Assembly: GCA_021372575.1 (NCBI GenBank)
Contig: JAJFUE010000003.1
Span: 1-40,851 of the forward strand
Length of the DNA: 40,851 nt
Direction: 5' to 3'
From: a bacterium
GTDB taxonomy: Bacteria > Sumerlaeota > Sumerlaeia > MVZB01
The translations under genes were made by a program, and so were the position numbers. Positions 33,206-40,851 of this stretch are shown one piece after another. Position 1 is the first letter of the stretch, and the number at the start of each line of letters is the position of its first letter. The notes beneath the pieces are model-generated. The model saw only the letters and a list, made by a program, of their open reading frames with translations, did no database searches and was not told the DNA's origin.

Positions 33206-33659
33206 GATTCAGCTTCGCCGAAGCGAGGGTTGATTTGCAAGAGCCGGAACGTGTGACGAGAGGCGTTTTTTCGTGCTTGTGCTCGCAATCCTGGCCGGGC
33301 CAAGCCAGAACCAAACACATGTTGCAGTCTCGATCGACACATCCAATCGGCTGGAGCCGACGATCGCGATTGTATTTCAAGAACCATACAATTTGTGGCC
33401 ATTTTACATTTAATTTCAGCCGTTAGAGTAATCGTAATCGAAGGTGACGCGCGTTCCCAAAACCCTTCTCGCCAATATTAAAATCATTGATTGACACGCC
33501 CGGTTTATGCGAGGGATGTGGTTCTTGTTGTTGATGATGATCGATCTGGATACGATGCAGTAGCCCGAGCGAAAGGGCGAGGGACACGCGATTCGAGAGG
33601 GCTGCGATTACAAGCGCGAGCACGAATACCGCTTCCAAATGTTCGACAGGAAAATAACC
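33206..33659. other. Repeat-bearing spacer upstream of aroC
   Basis: No gene is supported. Contents: a minus-strand GATTAC/GAGCAC element split by about 141 bases (33271-33442), a GTAGCCCGAGCG...GCGAGGGACA element (about 33560-33592), and a degenerate 6-base copy (33604-33627). Confidence 0.65.
33271..33442 (-). repeat. Interrupted copy of the 6-base GATTAC/GAGCAC element
   Basis: Minus-strand reading TTCGATTACGATTAC (33442-33428), then about 141 unrelated bases, then GCGAGCACAAGCACGA (33286-33271). The junction falls exactly between the GATTAC and GAGCAC halves of the element. Confidence 0.6.
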
Positions 33660-34859
33660 ATGCTGCGTTACATGACATCGGGTGAGTCGCACGGGCCGCA
33701 ACTGACGGCGATCGTGAGCGGGTTGCCGGCGGGCCTGCCGGTGCGCGCCGCGGATATCGACCGCGATCTCCATCGCCGCCAGGGCGGCTACGGCCGCGGC
33801 GGGCGCATGGCGATCGAGCACGACGTTGTGCGCATCGTTTCCGGCGTGCGCCACGGTTTCGCCATGGGGAGCCCGATCACGCTCATCGTGGAAAACCGCG
33901 ACTGGAAAAGCTGGCAGGCGATCATGTCGGCGGAGCCGGTTGAAGATGTTGAGGGCAAGCGCGCCGTCACGCGCCCACGGCCCGGCCACGCCGACCTCGC
34001 CGGCATCCAAAAATTCGCCCACACCGACGCGCGCAACATCCTCGAGCGGGCGTCGGCGCGCGCCACCACGACGCAGGTTGCCGTCGGCGCGCTGTGCAAG
34101 GCGCTCCTTGCCGAGTTCGGCATCCGCGTCGGCTCGCACGTGACGGAACTCGGCCACATCAAGGTCAGCCCAGAGCTGATCGCGTCCCTGTCGCTCGACG
34201 AAATCGAGCGGCGCGTCGAAGCCAGCGAGCTGCGCGTCGCCGATCCGTCGCTCGAGGCCGAGATGAAGCGGCTCATCGACAGCGTCAAGGCCGATGGCGA
34301 CACGGTCGGCGGGGTGTTCGAAGTCATCGCCACCGGCGTCCCGTCCGGCCTCGGCAACGTCATGAACTGGGACGAGCGCCTCGACGGCCGCATCGGCCAG
34401 GCGTTCATGGCGCTTCAGGCGATCAAGGGCGTCGAAATCGGTCTTGGGTTCGAGGGGGCGCGCCGCCCCGGCAGCGAAGCCCACGATCCGATTCTCTACT
34501 CGGAGCATTCGGCCGATTGGCCCGAAGGCCACGGCCCGAGCGGCGGTTTTTACCGCAAGACCAATGGCGCCGGCGGCATCGAAGGCGGCATGAGCAACGG
34601 CGAGCCGATCGTCGTGCGCGCGGCGATGAAGCCGATCGCGACGCTCATGCGCTCGATCCAGTCGGTCGATTTCGCGACGCGCCAGCCGTTCGACGCCAGC
34701 AAGGAACGCAGCGACGTCTGCGCCGTCCCCGCGGCCGCCGTGATCGGCGAATCGCTTCTGGCGATCGTCCTGGCACAGGCATTTTTGGAGAAATTCGGCG
34801 CCGACAGCCTCGTTGAACTGAAACGAAATTATGAAGGCTATATCGAATCGCTCGGGTAG
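33660..34859 (+). CDS. aroC: Chorismate synthase
   Basis: Converts EPSP to chorismate, the last common step of aromatic amino acid synthesis; needs reduced FMN. The 399-residue protein has the N-terminal SGESHGPQL, the FMN/substrate block RRQGGYGRGGRM, RPRPGHADLAGI, and TDARNILERASARAT. The conserved SNGEPIVVRAAMKPIAT and the closing helix are in place. I chose ATG 33660, with AGGA eight bases upstream and family N-terminus at once; an earlier in-frame ATG at 33639 adds seven residues. The stop codon lies in GGGTAGGTCGGGTCTTCGAC, the start of the long repeat behind the gene. Confidence 0.96.
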   Translation: MLRYMTSGESHGPQLTAIVSGLPAGLPVRAADIDRDLHRRQGGYGRGGRMAIEHDVVRIVSGVRHGFAMGSPITLIVENRDWKSWQAIMSAEPVEDVEGKRAVTRPRPGHADLAGIQKFAHTDARNILERASARATTTQVAVGALCKALLAEFGIRVGSHVTELGHIKVSPELIASLSLDEIERRVEASELRVADPSLEAEMKRLIDSVKADGDTVGGVFEVIATGVPSGLGNVMNWDERLDGRIGQAFMALQAIKGVEIGLGFEGARRPGSEAHDPILYSEHSADWPEGHGPSGGFYRKTNGAGGIEGGMSNGEPIVVRAAMKPIATLMRSIQSVDFATRQPFDASKERSDVCAVPAAAVIGESLLAIVLAQAFLEKFGADSLVELKRNYEGYIESLG

Positions 34860-34877
34860 GTCGGGTCTTCGACCCGG

Positions 34878-35160
34878 TATGTGTTTAGCACGGCTAATTC
34901 GAATTTTTGCGCTGAAAGCGCAAGAGAATTTAGCCTGGGGCGGAGCGCAGCGCAGCCCCAGGTTGTGAGTCGATAAAAACCGGAGCGCTGAAAGCGCGAA
35001 AGAAATCGATTTCTCTCGCGCCTTCAGCGCTCGCGACTGATTGGGATCGCTGTCCTGGGGCTGCGCTGCGCTCCGCCCCAGGCTTTATTCTTTCGCGCCT
35101 TCGGCGCTCAGGCGTTAACGCCTTTCAATTGGAATCGGCTTGCGCACGCTAAACACATAC
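34878..35160. repeat. Long nested palindrome (about 280 bp)
   Basis: Arms, outside in: GTATGTGTTTAGC (34878-34890) / GCTAAACACATAC (35148-35160). Then 29-base arms starting CCTGGGGCGGAGCGC (34934-34962) and their perfect complement (35054-35082). Then GAGCGCTGAAAGCGCGA...TCGCGCCTTCAGCGCTC around a centre near 35008. The element contains no open frame of note. The start of a related copy closes the window at 40627-40851. Confidence 0.92.
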
Positions 35161-35203
35161 TCGACCCGACTCCGGGTCAGTAGGTCGCTTCGGCTCGACA
35201 TGA

Positions 35204-35430
35204 ATGCAGTAGCCCGAGCGTCAGTGAGGGATAACCTTCTCAACTTTTTTCAGCAAAGTAAAAACAGGAGGAAACGGAGGAAACAGAGAATTTCTCCGTT
35301 CCCTCCGTTTTCTCCTGTTTAAAAAAAATCTCTGTTCTCCGTCTCTCTGTGTCTCTGTGGCAAAAAAATCTTTGAATCTGTTTTTACCGATCGTGCCGCG
35401 TGTCCCTCGCTCACGCTCGGGCTACTGCAT
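35204..35430. repeat. Second palindrome: GTAGCCCGAGCG arms around a GGAGGAAACGGAGG hairpin
   Basis: Outer arms: ATGCAGTAGCCCGAGCG (about 35204-35220) and CGCTCGGGCTACTGCAT (about 35414-35430), mutually complementary. Between them sits the 35264-35318 hairpin, ACAGGAGGAAACGGAGG...TCTCCTGT, plus a TCTCTGTGTCTCTGTGGC stretch. The hairpin is the same family as the inverted arms at 5263-5512, without cargo. Confidence 0.85.
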
Positions 35431-35443
35431 GGATGTCCTCGCT

Positions 35444-36406
<963 letters not shown>

Positions 36407-36496
36407 GGTGGGAATCCTCGCAGCACGACATCCAGGCACAATACCCGGCGCCTTAATGTAGCAAATTTCCCGAAAATATGAAGCAAGATTCGAAAT

Positions 36497-39380: not shown

Positions 39381-40625
39381 ATGAACCGACGTCTCACAAA
39401 GCGTGATGCAATCTTTTATGCAGCGATCCTGCTGGTCGCGGGCGCGCTTTTCGTTGGCGGCGTGCTGGCCGGCCACCGGCTTCTCGTGCGCGGGTATCTG
39501 TGGCCGGCGAACATCCTGTTCGGCATGGACGCCGAGCGCAACATCCGCAACCTGACCGAGTCCGGTTTCAACGACCGCAGCAATGTGCATCCGTTTTTCA
39601 CGCTGATTTTCAAGCCGGTCGGGCGCGCGGTGATCCGCTGCGGCATCACGCCCGGAACGGCGGGCGTTGTCGTGAACGCCGCCGCCGGCGCGCTTGCGGT
39701 TCTGCTTTTTGCCCTTTACCTGCGCATGCGCGGGATCGCCCGCGCGGAAACGGTCGCGCTCGCGCTCCTGTTCGCCGCCTCGACGACGCTCGTCATCGAA
39801 TCCGCCGTTCCGACGACGTTCCTGTTCTCGCTCTTTGTCATCATCGCGACGCATCTGTTGCTCATCCATTCGTGGCGGCGGGAACGCGACGTGCTGCTTG
39901 AAATCTGGTGGCTCATCGCGGGCCTCGTCAATTACGGGGTGACCATCACGGCCGGGTTCCTCGCGTTTCTGGCCTACGGGTTTTCGCGCCGCGACCGGCG
40001 CGGGTGGCTCCATTCGTTTTTTTACGGCGCGGCGGTGTTCGGGCTGGGGCTCGTCCTGACGTTCATGGTCGGCAGCCTGATGAACATCACCGCCGAGCGC
40101 CAGTTCCTGTTCGGCTACAAAGGCCCCTACAATCCGTTCCTGGCGCTGATCCATACGTTGTCTTCGTTCCTGGCGTGGAACGTCGTCGCGCCGATCCCGC
40201 AGATCAGCGTCTCCGACATCGGAGTGCAACTGCTGACGTTCCAGTCGTGGCATTACACGCCGCTCGGCTGGCTGATGCTCTTGTTGTGGATCGCGCTATT
40301 CGCTTGTGGACTCTGGGCGGCGCTTGTCGATCGCGACGAATCGAGCCGGCGTTTCTCGGCGGCGCTGGCGGCCTCGCTCGGCTTTGCGATCTTGCTCCAC
40401 GTCTTTTATTACGTTGGGTTCGAAGGGAACTTTCAGTTCTCGGGCCAGTATCAGTTCTTCGTGATCGGCCTGCTGGCGCCGCTGGCGTGGCGCGCGTCGC
40501 AATGGCCGTCGCGCCGCCGCGCGTGGTTCCTGATTCTTCTGATCGCGTTTTCAATCTGCCTCGCCGCGCGGCATTACAACCTCATCTGGCACACGCCCGA
40601 CCTCGTCCCGTTGCCGGGTCAGTAG
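39381..40625 (+). CDS. Polytopic membrane protein, possible GT-C-like, unknown function
   Basis: A 414-residue membrane protein with roughly ten hydrophobic segments. After the first helix comes an extracytoplasmic loop, GMDAERNIRNLTESGFNDRS followed by NVHPFFTLIFKPVG, whose position and acidic content recall the catalytic loop of GT-C glycosyltransferases, though the DDAY or DTHPP signatures are absent. Later loops include YKGPYNPFLALIHTLSSFL and FEGNFQFSGQYQFFVIG. I cannot name the family. The ATG at 39381 begins at the first membrane helix; the frame is open upstream through the 9-base repeat, giving a SYRSYRSYR tract that I exclude. The closing LVPLPGQ and the TAG stop lie in the repeat word GGGTCAGTAGGTCGCTTCG, so the C-terminus may have been reshaped by repeat insertion. 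Confidence 0.75.
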   Translation: MNRRLTKRDAIFYAAILLVAGALFVGGVLAGHRLLVRGYLWPANILFGMDAERNIRNLTESGFNDRSNVHPFFTLIFKPVGRAVIRCGITPGTAGVVVNAAAGALAVLLFALYLRMRGIARAETVALALLFAASTTLVIESAVPTTFLFSLFVIIATHLLLIHSWRRERDVLLEIWWLIAGLVNYGVTITAGFLAFLAYGFSRRDRRGWLHSFFYGAAVFGLGLVLTFMVGSLMNITAERQFLFGYKGPYNPFLALIHTLSSFLAWNVVAPIPQISVSDIGVQLLTFQSWHYTPLGWLMLLLWIALFACGLWAALVDRDESSRRFSAALAASLGFAILLHVFYYVGFEGNFQFSGQYQFFVIGLLAPLAWRASQWPSRRRAWFLILLIAFSICLAARHYNLIWHTPDLVPLPGQ

Positions 40626-40851
40626 GTCGCTTCGAGCCGAAGCGTATGTGTTTAGCGCGTAGGTAATCGGTTGTTGCGAGCGCATGGTGCAAAGCGCGCG
40701 CTGAAAGCGTAACAAGAATATAGCCTGGGGCAAAGCGAAGCGACGCCCCAGGTCAGAATCGCATCACGTTAGGAAGCTCTGAAAGAGCGGAAGAAACCCG
40801 TGGTCCATTTCTTTCGCGCCTTCAGCGCTCTCGTTTTCTTGGGATCTTATC
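40618..40851. repeat. Partial second copy of the long palindrome, cut by the window edge
   Basis: Reads in order GTCAGTAGGTCGCTTCGAGC, TATGTGTTTAGC, GCGCTGAAAGCG, a CCTGGGGCAAAGCGAAGCG arm, then TTTCTTTCGCGCCTTCAGCG. This is the left half and centre of the element at 34878-35160, diverged in places. Two copies of the GAAGCG/CGCTTC word near 40628-40645 form a small hairpin. Confidence 0.85.

Follow-up and report, generated by a model that had tools for sequence, protein, structure and literature searches.

The window, the whole stretch of 40,851 nucleotides that was analyzed, corresponds to the entire contig C194 of a draft genome of 214 contigs and 4.63 Mb. An inserted element of 284 bp (34877-35160), which carries no gene, is located between the convergent genes aroC (plus strand) and nadA (35444-36439, minus strand), and starts 17 bp after the aroC stop codon. 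The features of the locus are the following:

33639-34859, plus strand: aroC, chorismate synthase (TIGR00033, E 2.6e-117; PF01264)
34860-34876: target hairpin, left part, GTCGGGTC-TTC-GACCCG(AC), split by the insertion (sequence; rebuilt empty site)
34869-34876: target duplication TCGACCCG, left copy (flanking-repeat comparison)
34877-34889, plus strand: left terminal inverted repeat GTATGTGTTTAGC (arm search and terminus matches)
34877-34908, plus strand: left arm of the outer element (MITE), with 4 differences in 32 positions from the left arm of a core-less 75-bp element
34908-34962, minus strand: Acido-Lenti-1 motif, first arm (RF01687, 37.8 bits, threshold 37)
34909-35117: core, an inner palindrome of 209 bp missing from the 75-bp element (comparison with the core-less element)
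34985-34997, plus strand: small hairpin GCGCTGAAAGCGC, first of the central inverted pair (copy alignment)
35018-35030, minus strand: small hairpin GCGCTGAAGGCGC, second of the central inverted pair (copy alignment)
35054-35108, plus strand: Acido-Lenti-1 motif, second arm (RF01687, 46.1 bits, threshold 37)
35118-35160, minus strand: outer element (MITE), right arm, all 43 bp of which match the core-less element G000:C138 (100%)
35148-35160, minus strand: right terminal inverted repeat (arm search and terminus matches)
35161-35168: target duplication TCGACCCG, right copy (flanking-repeat comparison)
40644-40851, plus strand: second copy, of a diverged subfamily, ended by the contig end (sequence comparison)

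The strong palindrome that the initial annotation had reported behind aroC was confirmed. Its arms form a 54-bp pair (34909-34962 / 35054-35107, 89%), which contains the perfect 29-base pair described previously (34934-34962 / 35054-35082), a central 25-bp pair (34983-35007 / 35008-35032) and the perfect 13-bp terminal inverted repeats. The DNA fold of the stretch was calculated at -120.2 kcal/mol, compared with -63.8 ± 3.8 for shuffled sequences (z = -14.9). The palindrome had also been called nearly perfect, with a single centre near 35008. This centre was correct for the inner arm pairs (35007.5-35008), but not for the terminal pair, centred 10 bp away at 35018.5, and the identity of the element to its own reverse complement was about 78% over the middle 199 bp. 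Therefore, the structure is not one nearly perfect palindrome. The limits first assigned to it (34878-35160) were exact at the end and had to be corrected to 34877 at the start. A second inverted pair adjoins the element at 35207-35430, where TAGCCCGAGCGTCAGTGAGGG (35210-35230) and its inverted copy (35404-35424) surround a 29-bp inverted repeat (35262-35290 / 35292-35320); this arrangement resembles a pair of GTAG-type REPs from a different family.

The distribution of the element in the host genome was analyzed with a 301-base query, and about 40 matching places were detected, several of them covering most of the query with 94-100% identity. The terminal 13-mer, allowing one mismatch at most, was found at 76 sites in the 4.6-Mb genome, compared with 4 for a reversed-pattern control. 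These counts validate the earlier proposal of a dispersed element and rule against a single copy. The half-copy previously placed at 40618-40851 is indeed a second copy, but it occupies only 40644-40851 and stops there because the contig ends; many other copies are likewise situated at contig ends. When the termini were compared side by side, many elements were alike in their ends only, and their interiors belonged to several hairpin types, CCTGGGGC (the type of the window), GACCCTGAAAGGGTC and AACCGTTGAAACGG. The conserved ends of the outer element span 13-14 bp and read GTAYSTGTTTAGCG, also given as GTATGTGTTTAGCG. Elements with these ends in the host genome measured 65-427 bp and carried no transposase gene.

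Both ends together with 8-bp flanking repeats (two mismatches at most) were observed in 18 elements of the host genome, and the repeats were perfect in nine; random 8-mers at such spacing match equally well in 0.8% of cases. The flanks of the complete copies were unrelated to each other, and a target duplication bounded each complete copy. Shared terminal inverted repeats, a target site duplication and a short sequence without transposase are the features of a MITE, and the ends together with the 8-bp duplication point to double-strand insertion with a stagger, by a DDE-type or similar enzyme. The initial annotation had noted neither that the outer arms are transposon ends, nor the 8-bp duplication within a hairpin, nor the Rfam match of the inner arms. 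A REP-like word, TAGGTCGCTTCG, adjoins both element copies of the window (35181-35192 and 40623-40634), and both copies are inserted in or beside palindromes of this type.

An inverted chimera created by the assembly had been mentioned as a possible pitfall, and the genome is a draft of 214 contigs, several of which start or stop within copies of the element. Nevertheless, the copies are scattered over many contigs in differing surroundings, every complete one with a duplication and a hairpin of its own. Moreover, several copies show the same differences between their two halves, and the core architecture recurs in a relative. An artefact is thus extremely improbable.

To characterize the insertion sites, the empty site was rebuilt by deleting the element and one duplication. 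At aroC, a small hairpin GTCGGGTC-TTC-GACCCGAC was obtained (written whole, GTCGGGTCTTCGACCCGAC), with an 8-bp stem whose apex lies where the duplication starts. In 48 of the 58 sites rebuilt from the host and other genomes, the stem reached 5 or more, compared with 16.6% of random 42-mers. Such a stem with its apex 2-4 nt from the duplication centre was present in 46 of the 58, compared with 2.8% of random 42-mers, and in 28 of 33 when only elements with perfect duplications were counted; the hairpin geometry was absent from 12 of the 58 sites. Since the target stems are unlike in sequence, what they have in common is their palindromic structure, rather than any motif. The constant distance to the apex suggests that the enzyme would recognize a hairpin or a cruciform, and the fact that relatives in several phyla enter hairpins likewise suggests that the target is chosen by its DNA shape and not by its sequence.

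The 209-bp core was delimited by comparison with G000:C138, an element of 75 bp that is flanked by a perfect duplication of its own (CCGGCTTC) and equals the element of the window minus the inner 209 bp; the right arms are identical over 43 bp and the left arms differ at 4 of 32 positions. The core was also detected without the ends at C83:26351, C168:6725 and C70:1197, with no duplication visible by eye. The 75-bp element may be the empty form, and it could also be a deletion product; as the core was also found elsewhere, insertion is the more probable of the two, although this is not proof. Discrete ends and the lack of a visible duplication make a Y1 single-strand insertion the likeliest route for the core.

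An alignment of 24 copies of the core, of the kind proposed in the initial annotation for detecting covariation, revealed six conserved small hairpins separated by variable spacers. In the third hairpin, one base pair was altered on both sides in five copies. At that column the innermost long pairing was lost in 18 of the 24 copies, with the local hairpin retained, and in the middle unit the long arm pairing covaried. Paired cells amounted to 97% for the local hairpins, 92% for the long hairpin and 81% for the innermost long helix. This covariation pattern indicates that the local hairpins are kept and the long fold is partly kept. It also answers in part the question, raised previously, of how so long a palindrome can be stable: the arms are offset, the spacers vary and most copies have one disrupted pair within the innermost long pairing. 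The core consists of two hairpin units in inverted orientation, as in a REPIN, but neither a GTAG nor a CGTC tag was seen beside its hairpins in the sequence and in the copy alignment; hence the term REPIN-like.

Both arms of the core scored above the gathering threshold of the Rfam covariance model for Acido-Lenti-1 (37 bits). This motif was published as a probable RNA of Acidobacteria and Lentisphaerae and is filed as an RNA of unknown function (PMC2864571), whereas in this element it makes up the arms of a palindrome with dispersed copies. Matches to microRNAs in Rfam were discarded, being far under their own thresholds. A structured RNA, or a bidirectional terminator serving aroC and nadA, that is maintained by selection and whose copy spread is a secondary effect, would fit the convergent position of the genes, the terminator-like stems, the filing of the arms as sRNA and some compensatory changes. 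This explanation is highly unlikely, considering the target duplication at each complete copy, the unrelated flanks, and a number of terminator-like sites (6 vs. 3.8 ± 2.1) not clearly above chance.

Thirteen Y1 matches were detected in the host genome. Two of these genes, C83:40519 and C111:15395 (PF01797, E 4e-20 and 1e-24), have core-type hairpins on their flanks, and the flank of C111:15395 reached 32.6 bits with the Acido-Lenti-1 model (threshold 37). Neither gene is bounded by the end sequence, the nearest end being about 1.1 kb away. Several of the remaining Y1 genes have hairpins of other kinds at their sides, and some target hairpins resemble hairpins beside such genes (AGCCGGCTTCAGCCGGCT near C150:3962 and CCCGCCATGACAATGGCGGG near C111:34768). 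Y1 genes were also present in all six tested genomes that carry the ends. These genes, together with the fact that no other partner enzyme was found, could indicate a single REPIN/RAYT-type element without an outer MITE, in which a Y1 (HUH) transposase would move all 284 bp including the ends. We consider this improbable: the 8-bp duplications are general in these elements, the same ends enclose interiors without this core, and the end sequence does not delimit the two Y1 genes with core hairpins. Y1 single-strand insertion is not known to generate a target duplication.

Elements of 65-430 bp with the same ends and unrelated interiors were also detected in Planctomycetota, Verrucomicrobiota and Bacteroidota. 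On contigs named Planctomycetota, Phycisphaerales, Verrucomicrobia and Bacteroidetes, complete elements with duplications were located at exact 14-mer matches, and the ends (one mismatch at most) numbered 293 and 145 in two Planctomycetota genomes and 94 in a Phaeodactylibacter genome. The words of the element had been compared to planctomycete-type genomes; this holds for the termini, which are numerous in certain Planctomycetota genomes. The host itself, however, seems to come from a different and small phylum: 39 genomes of its class were available, with only one further genome of the phylum among 60 relatives, whereas the sample of the phylum of G062, named Planctomycetota, was drawn from more than 294 genomes. 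The spread is patchy, with an exact match in 11 of the 294 sampled genomes of Planctomycetota (four with more than two) and a single match in one of the 38 other genomes of the class of the window. Viral contigs with the same 14-mers (309 stretches) contained no element, which indicates that chance 14-mers do not yield paired, duplicated elements. Elements, with 46 ends, were also present in G065 (L170), a record titled as an Akkermansia muciniphila MAG; at 7.9 Mb it is far too large for this species, and its label or bin is therefore doubtful. The end sequence was not found in the open literature.

The enzyme of the outer element was also searched for. Neither a transposase between such ends nor an autonomous parent with the same ends was observed in the loci read, among the matches listed for the richest genomes. 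IS66 (PF03050) and IS1595 (PF12762) were rejected as partners, since they matched in 2 of 6 and 3 of 9 end-carrying genomes, respectively, and had no match in the host genome. DDE_Tnp_1 (PF01609) was present in 8 of 9 such genomes, with no obtained locus bracketed by ends and duplication. At the locus L362 (G067:C96:75945-77620), two end-like sequences enclose a DDE gene; a duplication is lacking there, and the gene appears to possess inverted ends of its own. Two apparently long elements, G062:C313 (1454 bp) and G131:C34 (3961 bp), were each resolved into a short element plus an unrelated end. The reading frames adjoining solo ends in the host genome were ordinary-looking by inspection.

We regard as likely an explanation based on nested mobile palindromes, in which a target hairpin holds a transposase-less MITE and the MITE holds the REPIN-like core of 209 bp. 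According to this proposal, a small stem-loop just behind aroC would have received a non-autonomous DNA transposon, whose putative enzyme would recognize the GTAYSTGTTTAGCG ends and insert them with an 8-bp stagger at a fixed distance from the hairpin apex. The MITE family extends over at least three phyla, its members being alike only in their ends and in landing in hairpins. The core, probably a pair of inverted hairpin units (Acido-Lenti-1/REP-like) such as those flanking Y1 (RAYT-like) genes of the host, would have been inserted afterwards near the middle of the MITE, most likely by such a Y1 enzyme. These steps are proposed from sequence comparisons. A broader reading is given about even odds: a cross-phylum system that chooses hairpin apices of any sequence by their secondary structure, with an 8-bp stagger, and with ends conserved from Planctomycetota to Bacteroidota without a visible autonomous copy; the Acido-Lenti-1 "RNA" would then be, instead of an sRNA gene, one arm of a Y1-mobilized palindrome.

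Bacterial MITEs, such as Chunjie, MITEAba12, ERIC, YPAL and Nezha (PMC10969869, PMC3733652), are likewise short and gene-less, with terminal inverted repeats, target duplications and many copies. Unlike them, the element described here lands at hairpin apices, holds a second mobile palindrome and has no partner enzyme found. The REP-targeting IS elements IS1397, ISKpn1, IS621, ISPsy8 and ISRm22 also insert at a specific position within small palindromes of the chromosome; some of them produce a short duplication, and ISRm22 is inserted on the palindrome axis (PMC1525189). However, those elements have been reported at particular REP families, whereas this one enters hairpins of unrelated sequence, with an 8-bp duplication and without a gene. 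The core resembles REPINs and RAYT-associated REPs in its inverted hairpin units and variable spacers, and perhaps also in its relation to hairpins that flank Y1 genes (PMC3116915, PMC3733652); REP dimers inside palindromes, and REPs arranged around RAYT genes, have been seen previously (PMC3733652). It differs from REPINs in its larger units, of two or three hairpins each, and in the missing tag.

These results bear on how long palindromes may persist in such genomes, as offset, nested and separately mobile pieces, on the possible nature of the orphan Rfam motif Acido-Lenti-1, and on whether hairpin recognition by a DNA transposon can be independent of sequence. For probing cruciforms and single-strand hairpins in living cells, a transposase that is guided by structure and has short conserved ends would be a useful tool; the end sequence provides a direct handle for seeking it.

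Additionally, several Y1 genes of the host (L316, L322, L327, L336; G000) each have their own flanking hairpin type, and some of these types resemble target hairpins of the element. In another genome of the same class, G021:C445 (L062 103-327), an inverted Acido-Lenti-1 pair lies between CACTACTTGGTCA and TGACCAAGTAGTG, a different 13-bp palindrome without the GTATGTG ends. Moreover, a strong single Acido-Lenti-1 match (54.8 bits), unlike the core of the window in sequence, was detected at G000:C88 (L040 265-311), where an end sequence of the family lies about 1.2 kb away.
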